DNA from: Armatimonadota bacterium
Lineage (GTDB): Bacteria; Sysuimicrobiota; Sysuimicrobiia; Sysuimicrobiales; Sysuimicrobiaceae
Length of the DNA stretch: 64,000 nt
Assembly (NCBI GenBank): GCA_031432545.1
Contig: JAVKGX010000008.1
Span: 1-64,000 of the forward strand
Direction of reading: 5' to 3'
The notes beneath the pieces are model-generated. The model had not been told where the DNA came from. It worked only from the letters and a program-made list of their open reading frames with translations, and made no database searches. How positions within the stretch are numbered: position 1 is the first letter of the stretch; the number at the start of each line of letters is the position of its first letter. Positions 12,257 to 64,000 of this stretch are shown here, in pieces. Made by a program: the position numbers and the translations under genes.

Positions 12257-13057
12257 ATGCGGTCGGTCTTCGCTCACGTCCCCGCCGAAGGCATCGCCAC
12301 GCTGGGGTGGCACGACTGGAACCCAGACCCCCTGGTCGTCCTCGGGTTGGCTGCCATCACCCTCCTGTACCACCTGCATCCGAGGATCCAGCCGCGCCAC
12401 GGTCACGTCGTGGCGTTCTGGGCGGCCCAGGCCGCTTTGGTCGTCGCGCTGCTCTCGCCGCTGGAGGTGGGGGCGGCCTACCTGTTCTGGCTGCACATGC
12501 TGCAGCACTTGATCCTGACCCTTGTTGCGGCACCGCTGTTCGTCCTCGCCACGCCGGTGGGGTTCTTGGGGTGGCTGTCGCGACGTCCGCTCGTCGGTGC
12601 GGTGCTGGACTTCCTGTGGGCACCCTGGCCGGCGCTGGTCGGGTACAATGCGGTCTTCCTGTTCTGGCACCTCCCGCCCGCGTACAACCTCACGCTGCAC
12701 AGCAACGCGGTGCACGTCGTACAGCATCTGACGTTCTTGGCATCGGCGGTCGTCTTCTGGGGCGTCGTGCTGGGGTCGGCGCCCCGTCGGATCCCCTACG
12801 GGGTTCGGATCGCCGTCGTGGTTGCCACAGCGGTGGTGCAGTTCATCCCCGCCTTCGTGATCGCACTGTCGGACCGCGTGCTCTATGCATACGCGGACGC
12901 CCCGCGCCTGTGGGGTTGGTCGGCCTTGGACGACCAGCGGTTCGGCGGGGCACTGATGTGGGTGCTGATGAACCTCGCGTACGTGACCGCGGCGCTTGCC
13001 CTGCTCGTCCCCGCCCTGCGCCAGGAGGGCACACGCCGCGGCGCCCACCACGCATGA
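12257..13057 (+). CDS. ctaG: Cytochrome c oxidase assembly protein, caa3-type CtaG family
   Basis: A 266-residue polytopic membrane protein (about seven spans) of the CtaG family (PF09678), which helps copper loading or assembly of haem-copper oxidases. Family features include LYHLHPR, the FWLHMLQHLILTLVAAPL helix with paired histidines, HLPPAYN and VQHLTFLASAVVFW. It is on the plus strand, downstream of rpoC, and faces the minus-strand oxidase genes tail to tail. It could be read through from rpoBC, since no strong promoter is visible in the 97-base gap. Confidence 0.88.
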   Translation: MRSVFAHVPAEGIATLGWHDWNPDPLVVLGLAAITLLYHLHPRIQPRHGHVVAFWAAQAALVVALLSPLEVGAAYLFWLHMLQHLILTLVAAPLFVLATPVGFLGWLSRRPLVGAVLDFLWAPWPALVGYNAVFLFWHLPPAYNLTLHSNAVHVVQHLTFLASAVVFWGVVLGSAPRRIPYGVRIAVVVATAVVQFIPAFVIALSDRVLYAYADAPRLWGWSALDDQRFGGALMWVLMNLAYVTAALALLVPALRQEGTRRGAHHA

Positions 13058-15044: not shown

Positions 15045-16793
15045 CTAGTGGTGCCTCGCCTCCTCCACCCCGGCTTCCTCCGGCGTGAGCCACTGCGGCA
15101 CGAAGTCCTCCTTGGCGCCCGGCACGCTGTACTCATACGGTCCGCGGTAGACGGAGGGGATCTCGCCGTGCCAGTTGCCGTGCGGGGGCGGGCTGTCGGC
15201 GTGCCACTCGAGCGTCGTGCCCCGCCACGGGTTCCGGCCGGCGCGGGGGCCGCTCGCCAGGCCCCACAGGATGTTGTACGCGAGCACCAACCCGCCGATG
15301 AAGATCAAAAACGCGCTGAGGGTGATGAACACGTTCAACGGCTGCAGCTTGGCGAGATACGGGAAGGCCTCCGTGGAGAAGATCCGGCGGTGCATCCCCG
15401 CGGTGCCCAAGTAGTACATGGGGAAGAACGTTCCGTAGATCCCGATCATGGTCAACCAGAAGTGCAGTCGGCCCAACCGCTCGTCGAGCATGCGGCCGAA
15501 CATCTTCGGAAACCAGAAGTAAATGCCGGCGAAGATCCCGAACAGCGACGCCGCGCCCATCACGAGGTGGAAGTGGCCGACGACGAAGAACGTGTCGTGC
15601 AGCGGGATGTCCAGCGGCGCATTGCCCAAGAAGATGCCGGTCAGTCCGCCGGCGACGAACAGCGAAATGAACCCGATGGCGAACAGCATCGCTGACGAGA
15701 AGTAGATCTTCCCCCGCCACAGCGTCGCCAGCCAGTTGAACGTCTTCACCGCGGATGGCACAGCGATCAGCAGCGTCGTGACGGCGAACGCGGTACCCAG
15801 CAGCGGATGCATCCCGCTCACGAACATGTGGTGCGCCCACACGAGGAAGCTCAGCAGCGTGATCGCCATCATGGAGGCGACCATCGCCGTGTATCCGAAG
15901 ATCGGCTTTCGCGAGAAGTTGGCGAGCACGTCGGAGACGATCCCCATGGGAGGCAGGATCACGATGTAGACCTCGGGGTGGCCGAAGAACCAGAAGAGGT
16001 GCTGCCACAGGAGGGGATTGCCGCCCGTGTGGTCGATCACCTGTCCGCCAACCACCAGGCCGGCGGGCACGAAGAAGCTGGTCCCGGCGACCCGGTCGAA
16101 CAACAACAAGATGCCCGCGGCCAGCAGCACCGGAAACGACAAGAGGGCCAGAATCGAGGTCAAAAACAGGCCCCACACCGTCAGCGGCATGCGGCTCAGG
16201 GTCATCCCCGGGGTCCGCATTTGGAGGATCGTCGTGATGTAGTTCAGCGATCCGAACAGCGAAGAGACGATGAAGATGGCGATCGCCACGATCCACAGCG
16301 TCTGGCCCATGCCCGAGCCGGGAGCGGCCTGCGGCAGGGCGCTCAGCGGCGGATATGCGGTCCAGCCGGCGCTGATCGGGCCCCCGGGCACGAAGAAGCT
16401 GGCCAGCAGCGGCACGATCGACAGCGCGTACGTCCAGTACGAGAGCATGTTGATGAACGGGAAGGCCATGTCGCGCGCCCCGATCTTTAGCGGGATCAGG
16501 AAGTTCCCGAAGCCCCCCACGAGCGCGGGAGTCAACACGAAGAAGATCATGATCGTCCCGTGCATCCCGACCACTGCGATGTACTGGTCGGCCTGCAGGA
16601 CGCCGGCGTCCGGCCAGGCGAGCTGGGTCCGGATCAGCATCGCGAGGGCGCCTCCGACCAGCAGCATGAACAGGGAGGTCAGCAGGTACTGGATGCCGAT
16701 GACCTTGTGGTCCTGACTGAAGACGTACTTTCGCCAGAAGCTCTGTTCGACGTGTACTTCCGGATGGGCCGCGTGGGTTTGGGCGGTCGCCAT
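15045..16793 (-). CDS. ctaD: Cytochrome c oxidase subunit I
   Basis: A 582-residue catalytic subunit that reduces oxygen at haem a3-CuB. Visible ligands and channel residues: HGTIMIFF (low-spin haem), FGHPEVYIVILP (CuB His, cross-linked Tyr and D-channel Glu, so A1 type), HHMFVSGM and HDTFFVVGHFHLVMG. It starts at ATG 16793, five bases after the ctaC stop, with GGAGGTGA overlapping that stop; this indicates coupled translation. Confidence 0.97.
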   Translation of the reverse strand: MATAQTHAAHPEVHVEQSFWRKYVFSQDHKVIGIQYLLTSLFMLLVGGALAMLIRTQLAWPDAGVLQADQYIAVVGMHGTIMIFFVLTPALVGGFGNFLIPLKIGARDMAFPFINMLSYWTYALSIVPLLASFFVPGGPISAGWTAYPPLSALPQAAPGSGMGQTLWIVAIAIFIVSSLFGSLNYITTILQMRTPGMTLSRMPLTVWGLFLTSILALLSFPVLLAAGILLLFDRVAGTSFFVPAGLVVGGQVIDHTGGNPLLWQHLFWFFGHPEVYIVILPPMGIVSDVLANFSRKPIFGYTAMVASMMAITLLSFLVWAHHMFVSGMHPLLGTAFAVTTLLIAVPSAVKTFNWLATLWRGKIYFSSAMLFAIGFISLFVAGGLTGIFLGNAPLDIPLHDTFFVVGHFHLVMGAASLFGIFAGIYFWFPKMFGRMLDERLGRLHFWLTMIGIYGTFFPMYYLGTAGMHRRIFSTEAFPYLAKLQPLNVFITLSAFLIFIGGLVLAYNILWGLASGPRAGRNPWRGTTLEWHADSPPPHGNWHGEIPSVYRGPYEYSVPGAKEDFVPQWLTPEEAGVEEARHH

Positions 16794-16798
16794 CGGTG

Positions 16799-17623
16799 TC
16801 ACCTCCGCGCCTGCTCGGCCATCCAGCGGTCGAACTCCTCCTGTGTCACGACGCGCACCTGGCCCCGCATCGTGTAGTGCCCGACGCCGCACAGCTCGGC
16901 GCAGGCCAGGTCGAAGGTCCCGGTCTGCGTCGGAGTGAACACGATCTCGGTGGTCGCGCCAGGCACCAGGTCCTTCTTCATGCGGAACGCCGGCACGAAG
17001 AAGCTGTGTTGCACATCCCGGGTCCGCAGCAACACGCGGGCCGGGCGATCGACGACCAACAGGATCTCCGGGCTGACGATGTCGTCGGCGGCTGCCGGGT
17101 CCGTTGGGTCAACGTTGAACGGTTCGCGCACGCGCAGATCCGTTCGACCGAGCTGGCCGTCGGGCCCCGGGTAGCGGGCCGTCCAGGCGAACTGTTCGCC
17201 GCGGACTTCCACGACGTGCGCGTCGGCGGGGGAGGCGAGTGTGATCCGCAACCACAGCACGAGCCCGGCCACGCTGAGCGCGACCATGGCGATTGCCGGG
17301 ATGATCGTGTAGGTCAGCTCCAATTTGAGGTGGAACGGAAAGTAGTGGGCGCGGGCGCCCGGACGCGCGCGGTAGCGGATGACGAAGTAGCCAAGCAGGA
17401 CGTGGATGAGGATGAAGACCAGTCCGGTCGTCCACAGGGTCACGTCGAACAACCAGTCCAGATCGGCCCCCTCGCGCGACGCCAGCGGCGGGAACCACCA
17501 CGCGCGCCGGGCGTACAGCGTACCGACCAGACCTGCGAGCATGAACAACCAGAACAGCAGACCCAGACCGAGGCCGGACCGCTGCGTGCGCTCGAGCGCA
17601 GCGTGCTCAGAGCGATCTTCCAC
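16799..17623 (-). CDS. ctaC: Cytochrome c oxidase subunit II
   Basis: A 274-residue CuA subunit. Three hydrophobic segments lead (about residues 18-40, 60-85, 100-125), then the cupredoxin domain with VRGEQFAWTARYPG, RDVQHSFFVPAFRMKKD and the CuA ligands CAELCGVGHYTM near residues 240-251. There is no CxxCH, so this is an aa3 rather than a caa3 subunit II. GTG 17623 is chosen for the TGGAGGG site upstream; the longer open frame overlaps the leader hairpin. First gene of the oxidase operon. Confidence 0.95.
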   Translation of the reverse strand: MEDRSEHAALERTQRSGLGLGLLFWLFMLAGLVGTLYARRAWWFPPLASREGADLDWLFDVTLWTTGLVFILIHVLLGYFVIRYRARPGARAHYFPFHLKLELTYTIIPAIAMVALSVAGLVLWLRITLASPADAHVVEVRGEQFAWTARYPGPDGQLGRTDLRVREPFNVDPTDPAAADDIVSPEILLVVDRPARVLLRTRDVQHSFFVPAFRMKKDLVPGATTEIVFTPTQTGTFDLACAELCGVGHYTMRGQVRVVTQEEFDRWMAEQARR

Positions 17624-56817: not shown

Positions 56818-57627
56818 ATGGAACGCCGACTCTTGGGCCGCACAGGACTGAGCGTCCCCGTGATCGGGATGGGGACGTGGAAGACGTTTGACGTCCGCGA
56901 CGCCGAGGCAGAAGCCATTTGCCACGAAATCGCACACGAGGCGGTCCGAGCCGGCGCGAACTTCTTCGACAGCTCCCCGATGTACGGTGAGGCGGAGCGT
57001 GTGCTCGCGGACGCCGTCCGACCCATGCGCGACACGGTGACCGTCGCGACGAAGGTCTGGGCCGAAACCGAAGCGGAAGGGCGGCGGCAGATCGAGCGCG
57101 CGCTGCGGTGGTTCGGCGGGCGGGTCGACGTCTACCAGGTCCACAACCTCGTGTCGACCGAACGCCACCTATCCTATCTGGAGGATCTGCACGTGCGCGG
57201 GCAGGTGCGCGCGATCGGTGTGACGCACTACACCCACGCCGCCTTGGCCGAGATCATCCGCTGGATGGAGAGCGGGCGGGTACATTGCGTACAGGTCCCG
57301 TACAACGCGGCGGACAGGGCCGTCGAGCGTGAGGTGCTGCCGCGGGCGCAACAGCTGGGGATCGGCGTCATCGTGATGCGGCCGCTGGGAGGGGGAGGGT
57401 TGGCCCGCCGCAGCCCGCCGGTCTCGGAGCTCCGACGGTTCGAACCGTTCGGCGTCCAGACGTGGGCGCAGGTGCTGCTCAAGTGGATCGCCAGCGACGC
57501 GCGGGTCCATGTGGTTATTCCGGCCACGTCCCGGCCGGGACGGATGACCGAGAGCGCCGTCGCCGGCGACCCTCCCTGGTTCGACGAGGAGACCCGTGAA
57601 CGGATCAGCGCACTGGCGAGTAGGTAG
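56818..57627 (+). CDS. Aldo/keto reductase
   Basis: A 269-residue NAD(P)H-dependent reductase. Catalytic tetrad Asp51, Tyr56 (MYGEAE), Lys79 (VATKVW) and His109 (QVHN); it opens RRLLGRTGLSVPVIGMGTW. It lies 83 bases after hpaD and may share the transcript, perhaps acting on an aldehyde such as succinate semialdehyde; the substrate cannot be read from sequence. No clear ribosome binding site. Confidence 0.85.
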   Translation: MERRLLGRTGLSVPVIGMGTWKTFDVRDAEAEAICHEIAHEAVRAGANFFDSSPMYGEAERVLADAVRPMRDTVTVATKVWAETEAEGRRQIERALRWFGGRVDVYQVHNLVSTERHLSYLEDLHVRGQVRAIGVTHYTHAALAEIIRWMESGRVHCVQVPYNAADRAVEREVLPRAQQLGIGVIVMRPLGGGGLARRSPPVSELRRFEPFGVQTWAQVLLKWIASDARVHVVIPATSRPGRMTESAVAGDPPWFDEETRERISALASR

Positions 57628-57645: not shown

Positions 57646-59949
57646 TCACTCCGGGGCCTCCACGGTCAGCGGAGCGTTGAAGTCGAACAGGCGAGAGGTC
57701 ATGTAGTGCGAGGGCGCGGCCATGAGCAGCTTGTGCACACGGAAGGTCCGGTTCCCGATCCAAGCGGCCATGGCCGCCGTGCCGTCGGGAGTCTGCCACA
57801 GGACGACGCGACACATCTCCTGCTCGCACCGGTCCTCGCGCCCGAGGGTGGCGTGCTCCACGCCTTGCATGTAGACGGCCGGCCCGCGTGCGGAGAAGGG
57901 CTCGGGCAGCACGTCGCGCGTCCACGCGCCGCCAGGCCGTCGGAGGTAGCGCGTGGCGCCGATCAGGACGACGGTGGTGCCGTCGGCGGATTCCAGGCGC
58001 GCGCGATCCGGTCGCTGAAACGCGTAGCGCGTGACGACGAAGCCGGACGCGCCGTCGGTGAGCTGTTCGGTCTCCCGCCATGTCCTGAGGCCTTCGATCG
58101 TCAGCTGGGCGCGCCGCAGCAGACGGAACGCGTCGAGGTCTGACGCCCAGCGTATCTGTCCGGCCAGGTGCGGGAAGCTGGTCCCCGCATCGGCGCGTCC
58201 GGTACGCCGCAGCAGCACCTCGATCTCCCAGTAGCCAGGTAGGCCCACAGCGCCGCCGTCGACAGCGTAGACTCCGGGATCGGTACGCGCCAGCACCAAC
58301 GTCGCCGGCGCGACGTCCTCGTCGAGCTTGCGCAGCCGCAGCAGCACGCGGTCTACGTCCACGGGCTGACCGGACGGGTCACGCACGGTCACCACGAACC
58401 GGTTCCATCCGGGTGTGCCGGGTGCGACTTCCAGCCGCACGTGCACGTCGCCGGCTGCGCCCGCCAGGGCCAGCGGAGGACGTTCGGCCGGGCGTTGGAC
58501 GGTGCGGGCAGGGGGTGTGATCGTCAGCACGGCTACGGCGAGCAGCACCGCGGCACCGAGGGCGCCCTCGGCGCCGACCAAGGCGACAAACCGCTTCCGC
58601 GCGGCCGGCCCAGTGACCCCTCCACCCAGCCGCGGCAGGAGCCAGAAGCGGTTGAGCGCTCCCAGCGCGGTCAGACCCACCACGAGCACCACCTTCACCG
58701 CCAGCGAGCGGCCGTAGAGGCTGTTGCGCAGAGCCGCCAGGTCCGGAACGTGCAACCACGCTGCGTACGCGCCCGTCACGAGGAGTACTGCCAGGCTCCA
58801 GCCCGCCAGCCGAGAGAACCTCCGCGCGAGGGCAGGATGCACGGCGGCGTCTTCCGCTTCCGTCCGCAGAACCACCCACAGGCACGGTAGCCCCCCGATC
58901 CACACCGAAGCCGCGACGAGGTGGATCCAGTCGGCGGCCACCGCGACCGGTCCTGCACCCCAAGCGTGCGCGTTGACCGTCAGGCTGAACAGCAGGACAC
59001 CCGCCGCCAGCACCGGCGTCCAGTCCGCCGTGTCCTCTCGGGCGCGTTCAAGCGCCACCTGTGCTCCCACGATCGCGACGCCGATGGCCAGCAGCAGGTG
59101 CGGCAGGTGGGCCGCGGAGACCAGTCCGGACGGACCCCCGGACAGCCCGGCCACCAGCGACAGAAACGCAACGGCGAATACAGCAGCCAGCTGCGCGACG
59201 CGTCCCGGGCGCGTCGCCGGTGCGAGCAACAGCGCTGCCATGCTCAGGCGCACCAGAACGCTCAACCCGGCCTGCGTGGTGGCCAGCAGCGTCCACAGTA
59301 AGCGCTCGCGTAAGACAGTCCAGATCGGAGCCCCGACCAAGACCGAGGCGTTGACGCCGAACTCGGCTACCGTGCCGATGATGACCGCGGTCGCGGCGAA
59401 CCTGGCGAGCCGGACGAGCCGGTCCTCGACGTCCGTCGGAACGGCACCAGGCTGGAGGGCGAATCGCCGGAAGAAGACGACCCCGGCCAACAAGGTGACG
59501 GCGAGGTATCCGATCCATCGAAAGGCCACCTGCGCGGGCGGCGGGGGGGCCGGGCCCGTCACCACCGCACCGGCGGGGGCCTCCCCGACGCCGAAGACCA
59601 GCAGCCCGCTCGTGGTGTGTCCGTCCACCTGCGAGAGCACCCGCCAGCGCACCGTGTAGGAGCCTTGAGGGAGGGGCGGCAGTGACACGGTGATGGTTCG
59701 GCCATCCTCGGAGACCGAGTGGCCCGTCGAGCGGATGGCTCCCGAAGGGTCCAGGACTTCGGCCGAACTGAGGGTGAGGTGGACCGGCTCGCTGAAGGTC
59801 AGCACCACCCGCGACGGAGGCTCGGCGAGGGAGGCGCCATTGGGCGGGTTCGCGCTCTGCAGGATGCCGTGGGCCAAGACGGGCGTTCCGACCCATAGGG
59901 TGATGACGATGGCCAGCAGCGCAGGCGTGGCGCGGGAGGGAAGGCTCAT
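57646..59949 (-). CDS. CopC-CopD fusion protein with C-terminal soluble domain
   Basis: A 767-residue protein. A signal peptide (1-26) ends in AHG, giving the N-terminal copper-binding His of CopC; CopC domain to about 120 (LTFSEPVHLTLSSAEVLDPSG, TVRWRVLSQVDGHTTSG); then about nine spans of CopD (about 140-480) with WIHLVAASVWIGGL; then a 280-residue soluble tail (FixH/YtkA-like beta part, then an unassigned domain). Proposed role: copper import or supply across the membrane. ATG shares one base with the preceding stop. Confidence 0.88.
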   Translation of the reverse strand: MSLPSRATPALLAIVITLWVGTPVLAHGILQSANPPNGASLAEPPSRVVLTFSEPVHLTLSSAEVLDPSGAIRSTGHSVSEDGRTITVSLPPLPQGSYTVRWRVLSQVDGHTTSGLLVFGVGEAPAGAVVTGPAPPPPAQVAFRWIGYLAVTLLAGVVFFRRFALQPGAVPTDVEDRLVRLARFAATAVIIGTVAEFGVNASVLVGAPIWTVLRERLLWTLLATTQAGLSVLVRLSMAALLLAPATRPGRVAQLAAVFAVAFLSLVAGLSGGPSGLVSAAHLPHLLLAIGVAIVGAQVALERAREDTADWTPVLAAGVLLFSLTVNAHAWGAGPVAVAADWIHLVAASVWIGGLPCLWVVLRTEAEDAAVHPALARRFSRLAGWSLAVLLVTGAYAAWLHVPDLAALRNSLYGRSLAVKVVLVVGLTALGALNRFWLLPRLGGGVTGPAARKRFVALVGAEGALGAAVLLAVAVLTITPPARTVQRPAERPPLALAGAAGDVHVRLEVAPGTPGWNRFVVTVRDPSGQPVDVDRVLLRLRKLDEDVAPATLVLARTDPGVYAVDGGAVGLPGYWEIEVLLRRTGRADAGTSFPHLAGQIRWASDLDAFRLLRRAQLTIEGLRTWRETEQLTDGASGFVVTRYAFQRPDRARLESADGTTVVLIGATRYLRRPGGAWTRDVLPEPFSARGPAVYMQGVEHATLGREDRCEQEMCRVVLWQTPDGTAAMAAWIGNRTFRVHKLLMAAPSHYMTSRLFDFNAPLTVEAPE

Positions 59950-60326
59950 CAGGGCCTCACGGTGAACCGGAACTCTCCCCGGGCCACGTAACCGTCGTCG
60001 GCGGAGACAGCCTTCCACCGGACTGTGTACCGGCCGGCACCGACCGGACGCAGGCGTGCGGCCATCGTGTTGCGGTCCAGGTTGTCCAGCTCGACGCCGC
60101 CTTTACCGTCGTCCACGCGCCGACCGCGGCCGTCCCACACGGAGATCGCGCTCGTGGCCGGATCGAGTTCCTCGTTGAACCACGCGCGCACGACGCGAGG
60201 AGGCGAGCGCAGGGTCGCACCGTGGCGGGGCTCGGACTTCAGCAGCCTTGCATGGGCCAGCGCGGTGGCGCATGCGGCCCCCGTCAACAGGAGGATCAGG
60301 CAGGCGGCGATACGGTAGGTCCGCAT
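59949..60326 (-). CDS. Periplasmic CopC-type copper-binding protein
   Basis: A 125-residue CopC. Signal peptide MRTYRIAACLILLLTGAACATALA, then AHARLLKSEP with the mature N-terminal His. The sandwich ends YTVRWKAVSADDGYVARGEFRFTV with the Asp-rich DDG in place of the usual DGH, so the Cu(II) site may be altered. Next gene overlaps by one base. Confidence 0.88.
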   Translation of the reverse strand: MRTYRIAACLILLLTGAACATALAHARLLKSEPRHGATLRSPPRVVRAWFNEELDPATSAISVWDGRGRRVDDGKGGVELDNLDRNTMAARLRPVGAGRYTVRWKAVSADDGYVARGEFRFTVRP

Positions 60327-60415
60327 CCCTCTAGTCCTCGGCAGATCCCGGCGGTGCCGGTGTCGCGACTCCTACTCACACTACCACCATCCCGTTACAA
60401 GTTCCCCCACACCCT

Positions 60416-60949
60416 TCAACGGTCCACAGGCGCCAGGCTGCGGATGAAGTTGATGACGTGCCAGCGCTCCTCCTCGGTGAGCCGGCCGCGCCAGGCCGGC
60501 ATCGCCGTGCCGGGAATGCCGTTGCTGATCCACAAGAACAGTTGCCCGTCGGGGTGTCCCATCGCCATGTGCACCCGGAAGTCCACCGGCCGCGGACGCA
60601 GCGTCGCCGCCAGGGGGCCGTCGCCGGCACCCTCCGGGCCGTGACAGACCTCGCAGTTCTGTCGGTAGACGCGCTCTCCGATCGCCACCGACTCGAACGT
60701 GGCCGGAAACGGGTTGCGCAGGGCGAACGGGTCGACCGGCGGCGCGAGCGAGCCGCGGACCACGAGCACACCCAGTCCGAAGGTCACGATTCCCGCTGCG
60801 ATCGCCGACCGCCCTCGCACGGTTCGGTGCGCCCGAGTCGCCGCCGCGTGCACCGCGAGCCCGGCGCCGGCCAGGGCGACGAGGATGCCGACGACAACCG
60901 CCGCGTCGGACATCGCTCCCAGGCCGTTCACCAGGAACGACGTGTTCAT
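60416..60949 (-). CDS. Membrane-anchored cytochrome c
   Basis: A 177-residue class I cytochrome c. Two hydrophobic segments (about 16-36 and 49-66), then CEVCH at 99-103 (haem attachment), GPEGAGDGPLAATLRP, and axial Met150 in GTAMPAW; ends EERWHVINFIRSL. It overlaps the upstream CopD gene by four bases, tying an electron carrier to copper proteins. It could be the electron donor to the aa3 oxidase. Confidence 0.92.
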   Translation of the reverse strand: MNTSFLVNGLGAMSDAAVVVGILVALAGAGLAVHAAATRAHRTVRGRSAIAAGIVTFGLGVLVVRGSLAPPVDPFALRNPFPATFESVAIGERVYRQNCEVCHGPEGAGDGPLAATLRPRPVDFRVHMAMGHPDGQLFLWISNGIPGTAMPAWRGRLTEEERWHVINFIRSLAPVDR

Positions 60950-62115
60950 CGCACACCCTCCACGCGCAGTGCCAGAAGGTGAACCCGCGCCGTCCCATCC
61001 GGCAGGGCGATCTCCATCTGCCACGGGCCTCCCATCGGAAGCACCGCACGGCCGCGAAACGTCCCGGCCGTGACCTGCTGCACCGGGACGTGGACCGGCG
61101 GCATGCGGTGCCCGATCATCTCGGCGAGTACACGAACCCGCGACGGGTCGGGTACGTCCCCCGCGCGGGTCCGGGCCGTGAAGCGGATCTCGAAGCCTCC
61201 GCGTGCGGGGTCCAGCCGACCCCGCACGACCCAATCTCCAGCCTGTTGCTCGAACGAGATCGACTCCCGCACCTCGGCCCGCTCGGGCGGTGCCTGACTG
61301 GTGAGCGTGCCGGTGAGCGCGAACACCGCGACCAACAGCGCAGCCTCCGCACGTACGCCCAGCACGAAGGACGTCGGCGACCCGCCCCGGAGCACCGTCG
61401 GGAGCAGCCGCCACCGGTTCGCAGCGGCCACGGACCAGACAGCGACCACCAGCCCCAGTTTGTACAGCAGCGCCCTCCCGTACGTCGTCCCCGTGAGAGC
61501 CTCCACTCCCCACAGGTGCACGAACGCAGCGTACAGACCCGTTCCCACGAGCAGGACGACACCGGCTGCTCCGACGGCCGAGAGGCGTCGGGCTGCTCGG
61601 GCCAGCCGGTCGGGATGTCCGCGCGGGGGTAGGGCAGCAAAGTACACCAGTGCCCCTCCCCAACCGACCGCGCAGGCCAGGTGCACCACATCGGCGAGCA
61701 ACGGTCCCCAGCCGGCCGCACCCGCGTGCGACGTCCAGCTGATCGTACCGAACAGGCCCAGCGCGGCGACTGCGAAAGCGGCACCGCTGACGGCGTTCCC
61801 CGAGCTGCCCACAAGTCCGGACCCGAGCAGGAGCAGCACGAGCCCGATCCGCAGCAGCGTTGCAATCCCGTGCCGGCTCCCGCCCAGGTAGCCGGCGAAA
61901 AGATCCAGGTCTAACCGTGCCTGCAACCCGTAGACGGCGAGGACAACGTCGGCCAGGCTCGCGAAGACGATCAGCCCGCCCCCGACGTGCAGACCGTTGA
62001 CCAGACGGCGTGCGGTCGCATCGTCGACGGGCGGCGCGATCCAGCGCGCGAAGAAACCCCCGCCGGCGAGCAGGACCGCGCCCAGATAGAGTGCAGTCCT
62101 AACCCCCGCCTCCAC
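60946..62115 (-). CDS. CopD-family copper transport membrane protein
   Basis: A 389-residue protein. About eight spans resemble CopD (GISWTSHAGAAGW-like ISWTSHAGAAGWGPLLADVVHLACAVGWGGAL, GTTYGRALLYKLGLV), followed by a periplasmic beta domain of about 110 residues with FixH/YtkA-like MPPVHVPVQQVTAGTF. Start GTG 62115 lies inside the preceding copC gene (17-base overlap). Confidence 0.85.
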   Translation of the reverse strand: MEAGVRTALYLGAVLLAGGGFFARWIAPPVDDATARRLVNGLHVGGGLIVFASLADVVLAVYGLQARLDLDLFAGYLGGSRHGIATLLRIGLVLLLLGSGLVGSSGNAVSGAAFAVAALGLFGTISWTSHAGAAGWGPLLADVVHLACAVGWGGALVYFAALPPRGHPDRLARAARRLSAVGAAGVVLLVGTGLYAAFVHLWGVEALTGTTYGRALLYKLGLVVAVWSVAAANRWRLLPTVLRGGSPTSFVLGVRAEAALLVAVFALTGTLTSQAPPERAEVRESISFEQQAGDWVVRGRLDPARGGFEIRFTARTRAGDVPDPSRVRVLAEMIGHRMPPVHVPVQQVTAGTFRGRAVLPMGGPWQMEIALPDGTARVHLLALRVEGVR

Positions 62116-62584
62116 TCCTGCCTGCCGGCCGGTACGTGAACACGAAGAACCCCTGCGTCGTGTGCGTGTCGATCGACAGCACGCGCCACATGACGACGAA
62201 GTGCCCAGGCGTCAGGTTCTCCTTGAGCCGGATCACGATCTGTGCGCTTACGCGATCGGTCGTTGCCAGGCCGTCGTCGGCGCGCGCCGTCTCGTCGCCG
62301 CGCCGGCGCAGCACCTCGTTGACCAGCAACGCTGCGATCCTGTTCAGTTGCTGGCGGTTCGCGCCAGCGGGCGCGTTCAGCGGATACACCCTGAAGATGC
62401 TGAAGCGCACCTCGACGGGTTCGCTAAACACCAAGCGTACCTCGCGCGGCGGGGTGGTCACCACGGCCCCGTCAGCCGGCACTGACATCCTCAGGTACGA
62501 GTGGGCTGCAGCGGCATCGATGCCGAGGACAGCCGCGACGACCGCGACAGCAATCCCGGCAGCGAAGAGTGTTGGCCCTCGCAT
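62099..62584 (-). CDS. Periplasmic CopC-type protein
   Basis: A 161-residue CopC. Signal peptide to about residue 27 (GIDAAAA), then HSYLRMSVPADGAVVTTPPREVRLVFSEPVEVRFS; near the C terminus SIDTHTTQGFFVFTY supplies the second His. An insertion of about 45 residues (LNAPAGANRQQLNRIAALLV...) separates the halves. One-base overlap with the upstream gene. Confidence 0.87.
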   Translation of the reverse strand: MRGPTLFAAGIAVAVVAAVLGIDAAAAHSYLRMSVPADGAVVTTPPREVRLVFSEPVEVRFSIFRVYPLNAPAGANRQQLNRIAALLVNEVLRRRGDETARADDGLATTDRVSAQIVIRLKENLTPGHFVVMWRVLSIDTHTTQGFFVFTYRPAGRSGGGG

Positions 62585-63042
62585 CACGGGAACCGCAACG
62601 TGCTGAGCGGCCGCACTTCGTGCGTCTCGAACGTCTCGTCGAAGGAGACGTCGCCGATGTTCCCCCACACGGGGATCCGGTACACACCGGGCCGGGCCAG
62701 CAGGACGTCGTCCGTGTAGTAGCCGGGCCGGCCGCGCTGCGGTCGGATCTGGAAGCGGCGCCTCGTCGCGCCGTCCGGGGCGATGATCTCGGCGTTGACG
62801 CTCCTCTCCAGGCCCTCCCCCGGCTGGTTGTCGGCGGTGCGGACGATCAGGTCCAGGCCGTTCCGCTCGTTGGTGAAGGAGGGTTCACGAACCATGCCGA
62901 CGATCACCCTGTAACGACCCCCGCCCACCTCCTTCGTCTGGTGTGCCGAAGCTTGCTGCGGGGTCCAAGAAATCAGGGTTGCGATCATCGCCGCGCCGGT
63001 CAGCAGGGTTGCGGTGATGAACAACCACAGACGTCGTCTCAT
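62584..63042 (-). CDS. CopC-cluster-associated secreted beta-sandwich protein
   Basis: A 152-residue secreted or anchored protein. After a hydrophobic lead (7-29) and AHQTKEV, the core reads GRYRVIVGMVREPSFTNERNGLDLIVRTADN, later RPGVYRIPVWGNIGDVSFDETFETH. This pattern is shared by uncharacterised proteins next to CopC/CopD in other high-GC bacteria. AGGAGG precedes ATG 63042. Function unknown; copper relation is by context. Confidence 0.75.
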   Translation of the reverse strand: MRRRLWLFITATLLTGAAMIATLISWTPQQASAHQTKEVGGGRYRVIVGMVREPSFTNERNGLDLIVRTADNQPGEGLERSVNAEIIAPDGATRRRFQIRPQRGRPGYYTDDVLLARPGVYRIPVWGNIGDVSFDETFETHEVRPLSTLRFP

Positions 63043-63119
63043 GGCTTGCCTCCTGATCTCGCGTCACTGTGGGCGCCACCGGCTCCGTGCCACTGGGCGC
63101 TGCTCGGACTGGTTCGAGA

Positions 63120-63536
63120 TCAGGCGGGACGCGGAGGCGGTTCGGGAACGGGGAGGGTGGGGCCTGCCGGGAGGAGAAACGCAAACGACAGGACGTGTCC
63201 TCCGGGGCTGGGCGGCGACAGCTGCGGACTCGAGGGGATGGCTGCGACGAGCGAGGCCATGCCTACGACGAGTGGTCCCAGGACACCGAGGATGCCAATC
63301 GACAGTACGCGCACTCCGTCCTGCAGGTGCGATTCGGGGTGTGTCACCCGAGTCGGCGAGGTCGCTGAACGGTGGTGGTGCTCGATGAGGGCCTGCTGCC
63401 GGGATGCCGCGTCGCCGCCGATGACAATGTGGGTGTGATACGGATCTCGCTCTGCGGTCGGATCCAGCAGAGGGCCGGCCAGCACGGCACATAGCCACAC
63501 CGCGACGACGATCCCTCGGGTCGGGTTCTTCCGCAT
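63120..63536 (-). CDS. Histidine-rich membrane protein of unknown function
   Basis: A 138-residue protein with a hydrophobic N terminus (10-24), a loop of about 45 residues rich in His (YHTHIVIGGD, IEHHHRS, THPESH), a second span (about 74-98) and a proline-rich tail. It is the first gene of the copper operon, 77 bases upstream of the next. The His cluster suggests metal binding outside the membrane. No family recognised; ribosome binding site unclear. Confidence 0.6.
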   Translation of the reverse strand: MRKNPTRGIVVAVWLCAVLAGPLLDPTAERDPYHTHIVIGGDAASRQQALIEHHHRSATSPTRVTHPESHLQDGVRVLSIGILGVLGPLVVGMASLVAAIPSSPQLSPPSPGGHVLSFAFLLPAGPTLPVPEPPPRPA

Positions 63537-63638: not shown

Positions 63639-64000
63639 GTGACGAAGTGGTCCAGATGCGTAGCATCGTGTGCGTGGATCGCAGTCGTTTTGGTCGTGAT
63701 CATCGTCGCAGCGATCGCGACGGTGCCGCTGGGCGCGTCGCCCGGACCGGCCGGTGCACAGAGCGTGGATGCGTTCGATCCGGCGCGTGTCGTCGAGATC
63801 GTCGAAGAGGGCGAGCGCGACCTGGGCGGTTTCCGCCAGTCCTACCAAGTGGTCCGTGTGCAGATCACCGGAGGTCCGGACCGAGGCCAGGAGACGGAGG
63901 CCGAATTCGGGGAGGCGTTCAACGTTCCCCAGGCCCAGCGCCTACGCGAGGGGGAGCGGGTCGTCCTGGTCAGGACCGCTCCCGCCGGGGAGGCGTTCGT
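63639..64000 (+). CDS. YibE/F-like membrane protein, N-terminal part only
   Basis: The gene runs off the right edge; 120 codons are present. A signal anchor (about 10-35) is followed by ARVVEIVEEGERDLGGFRQ, VVRVQITGGPDRGQETEAEF and LREGERVVLVRTA, the beta domain that opens YibE/F family proteins. GTG 63639 is chosen for GAGGTGA just upstream. It is divergent from the copper operon across about 100 bases. Confidence 0.7.
   Translation, partial: MTKWSRCVASCAWIAVVLVVIIVAAIATVPLGASPGPAGAQSVDAFDPARVVEIVEEGERDLGGFRQSYQVVRVQITGGPDRGQETEAEFGEAFNVPQAQRLREGERVVLVRTAPAGEAF

Follow-up and report, generated by a model that had tools for sequence, protein, structure and literature searches.

A c-type cytochrome joined to CopC and CopD suggests reduction of copper during uptake in Armatimonadota and Chloroflexota

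Why should a bacterial copper operon carry a c-type cytochrome? CopC holds extracellular Cu(II) with sub-femtomolar affinity; to our knowledge few bacterial cupric reductases have been described, and we know of no resolved route from CopC-held Cu(II) to copper that an oxidase can use. The question is raised by an operon of an Armatimonadota bacterium (contig JAVKGX010000008.1), encoded on the minus strand at 57646-63536 of a 64,000-nucleotide stretch, the whole of which was analysed and is called the window here. A preliminary description of the operon, made from the sequence alone, had proposed that its cytochrome points to redox-coupled copper capture or to copper delivery to the aa3 oxidase rather than to simple resistance. 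We found cytochromes of this type welded to copper capture and import proteins in dozens of bacteria, and this suggests that copper is chemically reduced during its uptake, probably for a respiratory oxidase.

The operon consists of seven open reading frames (ORFs), genes A to G, which are listed below together with the tail domain of G.

Gene A, 63120-63536, minus strand: small His-rich protein with an N-terminal membrane segment, then a conserved DPxHxH motif (DPYHTH).
Gene B, 62584-63042, minus strand: predicted secreted beta-sandwich protein with a CrdA-like fold (AlphaFold2 and Foldseek).
Gene C, 62099-62584, minus strand: CopC (Pfam 1e-16) with the full Cu(II) ligand set H28, D139, H141.
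Gene D, 60946-62115, minus strand: CopD membrane protein (Pfam 9e-13) with a weakly matching YtkA/FixH-like C-terminal domain.
Gene E, 60416-60949, minus strand: membrane-anchored monoheme cytochrome c (Pfam Cytochrome_CBB3/Cytochrom_C, 5e-13).
Gene F, 59949-60326, minus strand: second CopC (Pfam 3e-18).
Gene G, 57646-59949, minus strand: four domains, CopC, CopD, YtkA/FixH-like and LolA/LppX-like (a YcnJ-like core plus an extra tail).
C-terminal tail domain of G, 57649-58206, minus strand: predicted LolA/LppX/RseB superfamily fold with a conserved HxM near its end.

The preliminary description had most of the seven genes sharing bases at their ends, and four of the six junctions do overlap (by 1 base at B/C, 17 at C/D, 4 at D/E, as ATGA, and 1 at F/G), the other two being gaps of 77 (A/B) and 89 (E/F) bases. 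Its assignments of CopC, CopD, the CopC-CopD fusion and the c-type cytochrome were likewise confirmed by Pfam. A search of the operon region for sigma-70 promoters, significant terminators and Rfam elements found none.

The first step towards an answer is whether the cytochrome belongs to the copper genes. Of 43 genomes from 22 genera of the window's phylum (taken to be Sysuimicrobiota/CSP1-3), 12 encode close relatives of E (44-57% identity), and those of G000, G002, G003, G026, G027 and G037-G040 lie inside a CopC/CopD cluster; counted by genus, the cytochrome stands in a Cop cluster in five of the 22 (g1, g3, g5, g6 and g18) and is fused to CopD in two of these. A 571-residue frame in G002 joins the cytochrome to CopD, and a single 801-residue frame in G003 holds CopC, CopD, a YtkA-like domain and the cytochrome. 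Scanning the genome contigs with the E alignment gave 80 loci, of which the 12 closest and two others (L097 and L107) have the cytochrome beside or inside CopC-CopD, the rest being without Cop genes. L107, from Chloroflexota, unites parts of G and E in one 987-residue frame made of CopC, CopD, a LolA-like tail and the cytochrome. With the cytochrome domain of L055 as the query (E<=1e-20), an E-type cytochrome was found in 59 of 301 sampled Chloroflexota genomes, and 40 of the loci were inspected together with flanks of at most about 7 kb. CopD and the cytochrome share a single frame in 38 of these (37 of them with CopC too), and the remaining two have separate genes in the same order. The order in L055, A-B-[CopC::CopD::YtkA::cytochrome c], is that of A-B-C-D-E in the window, and this colinearity makes C, D and E most readily understood as a single machine split over three genes; very probably they make up one functional unit. 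Absence of the cytochrome from the clusters of relatives, named at the outset as refuting, is thus not what we found, and, judged from gene order and fusion, the placement of E-type cytochromes beside or inside CopC-CopD in other genera and in another phylum is far beyond chance. In clusters of family f5 (L042, 11806-13454; L045, 15119-16739) a histidine kinase and a response regulator stand between the cytochrome and CopC, possibly for copper-responsive regulation. Locus L054 is labelled Proteobacteria, yet its genome groups within the phylum of the Chloroflexota genome G044, and the deposit label is probably wrong.

E has two hydrophobic segments and one CXXCH motif. Over 43 fusions or C-D-E sets (CopC-CopD-cytochrome), on which residue conservation was measured, the heme ligands C99, C102 and H103 and the axial M150 are 100% conserved, which is the ligand set of a class I monoheme cytochrome c. 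Two further histidines, distinct from the heme ligands, are conserved as well (H127 in 98% and H132 in 100%), and this two-histidine pattern is present in all 43 sets compared with 6 of 112 other cytochromes; the pair is missing in a tandem cytochrome paralogue beside SCO1/PCuAC. H127/H132 may thus be a copper site on the cytochrome. In a cytochrome tree of 140 rows and few columns (105), the Cop-linked cytochromes form a clade (support 97/84) of 21 Cop-linked rows, one SCO1-linked paralogue and three rows scored unlinked; 21 of the 25 clade rows lie within 6 kb of CopC/CopD, against 3 of the 115 rows outside it (Fisher p about 5e-18, the rows not being independent). The cytochromes of L097 and L107 were placed outside this clade, so the fusion may have arisen twice or long branches may have misled the tree. 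A tblastn search of plasmids with E gave only partial cytochrome matches, <60% identical, and the copper-island cytochrome of C. metallidurans (pMOL30) was discounted, its match being weak (41% identity across roughly half of E).

The copper ligands are conserved in the same sets, at 98% for H28 (His1), D139 and H141 of the CopC protein C, and at 100% for the CopD histidines H130 and H145 of D. The CopC structure matches are copper-binding CopC structures, YcnJ (9c14) among them. G has a complete ligand set in its CopC domain (Pfam 2e-21; H27, D109, H111), its CopD domain is above the Pfam cut-off (CopD 4e-21), as is D, and its FixH/YtkA-like domain scores 24.3 bits against a FixH cut-off of 23 (4e-5). 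The fusion of G002 reaches 27.0 bits against the YtkA cut-off of 25.9, and the C-terminus of D is a weak match below the cut-off (FixH 17.8 bits, YtkA 17.7 bits). F keeps the N-terminal His but has DGY where the second ligand His would be expected (DGH), which leaves its Cu(II) His brace incomplete; this second His is consistently lost in its lineage, in 4 of 4 orthologues compared (window, L040, L041 and L049).

Neither A nor B has a significant Pfam match or an NCBIfam model, and no NCBIfam model was found for the CopC-CopD-cytochrome c fusion. Homologues of A with the same DPxHxH motif lie upstream of Cop or SCO1 genes in L040, L041, L043, L049, L051, L055 and L056. B, first described as an unknown partner, is predicted to resemble the copper protein CrdA: its AlphaFold2 model (mean predicted local distance difference test score, pLDDT, 87.6) has the copper determinant CrdA of H. 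pylori as its best PDB fold match by Foldseek (E 4.5e-5, 17% identity). A relative of B is in the cluster at 28 of the 40 Chloroflexota loci, and H34 at its predicted mature N-terminus, next to the end of the signal peptide, is invariant in eight aligned relatives. The tail of G, first described as unassigned, is still without anything significant from Pfam or PDB sequence profiles, and structure prediction, the check that had been proposed, now gives it a predicted LolA/LppX/RseB-like fold (AlphaFold2 pLDDT 78.6, from only four sequences; Foldseek 1.5e-7 to LolA-type proteins and a template modelling score of about 0.69 to LppX/LprG); the tail alignment has 19 members. CopC-CopD-YtkA proteins of the G type, with a LolA/LppX-like C-terminal domain (L135-L153), occur through most of the phylum, which would put a lipoprotein-carrier fold on a copper transporter.

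What could such a machine do? Its closest characterised counterpart is the CopC-CopD-YtkA importer YcnJ of B. subtilis (PMC13344008, PMC12362106), with which it has the CopC His-brace ligands, CopD and a putative extracytoplasmic YtkA-like C-terminus in common. YcnJ has neither a cytochrome nor a LolA-like tail, the parts are here split over C-D-E and G, and this cluster lacks YcnI (DUF1775) and YcnK, which accompany YcnJ in its operon. We propose, with confidence evenly divided, that the operon captures and imports copper in the manner of YcnJ, probably for the oxidase, with a heme redox partner of its own that would reduce Cu(II). The proposal builds on what the sequences themselves fix, namely the C-D-E unit, its fused form, the copper and heme ligands, the extra histidine pair and the SCO1/PCuAC linkage in part of the lineage. 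Extracytoplasmic Cu(II) would be bound by the CopC histidine brace of C and of G and by B, the secreted CrdA-like protein, and would be passed on to the CopD membrane protein (D, G). The membrane-anchored E would alter the copper's redox state at or close to the H127/H132 pair, most likely using respiratory-chain electrons to turn Cu(II) into Cu(I), which would then be transported by CopD or handed via the YtkA-like domain to SCO1/PCuAC/CtaG. That the heme reduces Cu(II) we place slightly below an even chance; this direction is favoured by the known requirement for Cu(I) and by the precedent of CcoG, through which Cu(II) reduction is a recognised step in oxidase copper supply (PMC7558416). For the redox-coupled copper handling of the preliminary description the physical unit is well supported, and beyond it we infer which way electrons and copper move, that the cytochrome has a copper site and that the oxidase is the client.

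Parts of this scheme have parallels elsewhere. In C. glutamicum, the CopD-CtaG fusion CtiP with CopC and the PCuAC-type Cg1883 (PMC9145763) likewise ties CopC/CopD to PCuAC and oxidase assembly, the fusion partner being CtaG there and cytochrome c here. For the cupric reductase CcoG and the putative reductase CrpH (PMC7558416, PMC13038864) a redox step supplying heme-copper oxidases is likewise proposed. CcoG is a membrane Fe-S protein and CrpH a PepSY_TM protein with membrane hemes, both unrelated to E, and the system described here differs from either in that its heme is of the c type, lies on the side of CopC and is fused to the transporter. Relatives of the E heme domain are found in cytochrome c/FTR1 fusions (plasmid hits H12 and H20-H24), a possible parallel of redox-coupled metal import in which the cytochrome is also joined to a metal permease, but to an iron permease of a different membrane protein family.

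Is the oxidase the client? Two features of the window, both outside the operon, bear on this.

Subunit I of an aa3-type oxidase (COX1), 15045-16892, minus strand: Pfam 1.5e-154; putative client, about 41 kb from the operon.
Caa3_CtaG oxidase copper-assembly factor, 12257-13057, plus strand: Pfam 5e-45; beside the aa3 oxidase genes and likely on the client side.

SCO1 and PCuAC, which are CuA-site chaperones, are absent from the window cluster itself. In genus g3, which belongs to the window's family, the cluster order is A-SCO1-PCuAC-VKOR/Trx-CopC'-cytc-cytc-CopC2-CopCD-tail. A second cluster, on contig C3 of the genome from which the window comes (L051, 6972-10099), consists of A' (His-rich), SCO1, PCuAC, VKOR/thioredoxin and an E paralogue without the H127/H132 pair. 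SCO1 and PCuAC also lie around the fusion in L056, and CtaG is found in L045. Genomes with the fusion have COX1 in 8 of 9 cases and SCO1 in 9 of 9, and four genomes of genus g10 (G008-G011) are without COX1, CopD and SCO1 together, their CopC hits being at most marginal; this lineage has apparently lost aerobic copper respiration. In YcnJ the CopC, CopD and YtkA domains support the aa3 (Qox) and caa3 oxidases in copper starvation, and the YtkA domain matters for caa3 (PMC13344008). The module thus likely supplies an oxidase with copper, and we consider copper supply for respiration, rather than resistance, to be fairly probable. An aldo/keto reductase gene (56818-57627, plus strand), convergent with G and downstream of it, has the same place in g3 (L049), which supports the orthology of the window and g3 loci. 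Divergent to A is a gene for a YibE/F-family membrane protein (63639-64000, plus strand, Pfam 2e-67), which extends beyond the window to about 64790 of its contig (L004, 6639-7790); such a gene also adjoins the Cop cluster in G002 (L059) and the cytochrome in G019 (L044).

Several observations weigh against this reading. The co-occurrence with the aa3 oxidase, a survey suggested at the outset, is weak evidence since COX1 is in 38 of the 43 phylum genomes; a Rokubacteria bin with the fusion had no COX1 detected, its completeness being unchecked, and the joint loss in g10 is a single event. At the 40 Chloroflexota loci no SCO1, PCuAC, CtaG or COX1 was found within about 7 kb at the thresholds used, and SCO1/PCuAC linkage as a general property of the module was rejected on this account. 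Many genera of the phylum have CopC-CopCD pairs without an E-type cytochrome, and F-G is a second unit, phylum-wide and independent of the cytochrome. A His/Met heme usually has a high potential, and it could reduce tightly held Cu(II) only if a strong acceptor of Cu(I) were coupled to the reaction. For the delivery to the aa3 oxidase proposed at first, the support is indirect (the SCO1-PCuAC-VKOR/Trx cluster of g3, L056, L045, the g10 loss and YcnJ), and the Chloroflexota loci and the cytochrome-free genera count against it.

The potential of the heme also bears on a different use of the same parts, in which E is a cuprous oxidase for detoxification: the cytochrome would take the electron of Cu(I) and pass it to the aa3 oxidase, CopC would hold the Cu(II), and the whole would be a resistance device replacing a CueO-type multicopper oxidase. 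In its favour are the tight binding of Cu(II) by CopC, the natural aptness of a high-potential His/Met heme to accept the electron of Cu(I), and the pMOL30 copper-resistance region of C. metallidurans, which holds the weakly matching cytochrome c gene given above. Detoxification is nevertheless unlikely: YcnJ, the relative that has been characterised, acts when copper is scarce (PMC13344008), several relatives have the module together with SCO1/PCuAC/CtaG, the window cluster showed neither an efflux ATPase nor a multicopper oxidase, and the Cu-oxidase_3 hits of this genome are elsewhere (contig C17). The PcoCD/CopCD resistance proteins of Gram-negative bacteria share the CopC and CopD families with the operon and are without the cytochrome part, and neither a CopA/CopB-type multicopper oxidase nor an outer membrane partner was seen in the ORF translations of 57646-63536 or of the following 13 kb. 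The neighbourhood of VKOR/Trx and SCO1 to a cytochrome paralogue in this genome and in g3 would suit E as a thiol or oxidase maturation redox factor, exchanging electrons with SCO1/VKOR-thioredoxin or a nascent CuA site and not with copper in uptake; but the fused partner in dozens of genomes is CopC-CopD, not SCO1 or VKOR, and the SCO1-adjacent paralogue is the one without the extra histidine pair, so such a role appears quite improbable. E might instead simply carry electrons to the aa3 oxidase, its co-expression with the copper genes reflecting shared conditions only; this agrees with the match of its profile to respiratory monoheme cytochromes (ACIII subunit E, cbb3 CcoP) but is equally improbable, since CopC-CopD fusions in two or more phyla and a Cop-specific histidine pair are not expected of a free carrier.

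We therefore return to copper capture and import with a heme redox partner. That CopC, CopD and YtkA take part in supplying oxidases with copper is already known; for a cytochrome c as a standing, often fused member of the Cop proteins no description was found in the searchable full-text literature, a scope outside which the 2016 CopC family survey lies. CopC::CopD::YtkA::cytochrome c might, as a tentative proposal that we doubt somewhat more than we trust, be a previously undescribed class of heme-driven importer, with a copper site of its own (H127/H132) at which Cu(II) delivered by CopC would be reduced and from which Cu(I) would enter the CopD channel. With a heme within the transporter polypeptide, a Cop-specific histidine pair and the cytochrome type in about one fifth of the sampled Chloroflexota genomes, the question of how bacteria use Cu(II) becomes open to direct spectroscopy. 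If the proposal is true, it would mean a bacterial extracytoplasmic cupric reductase built into a transporter.

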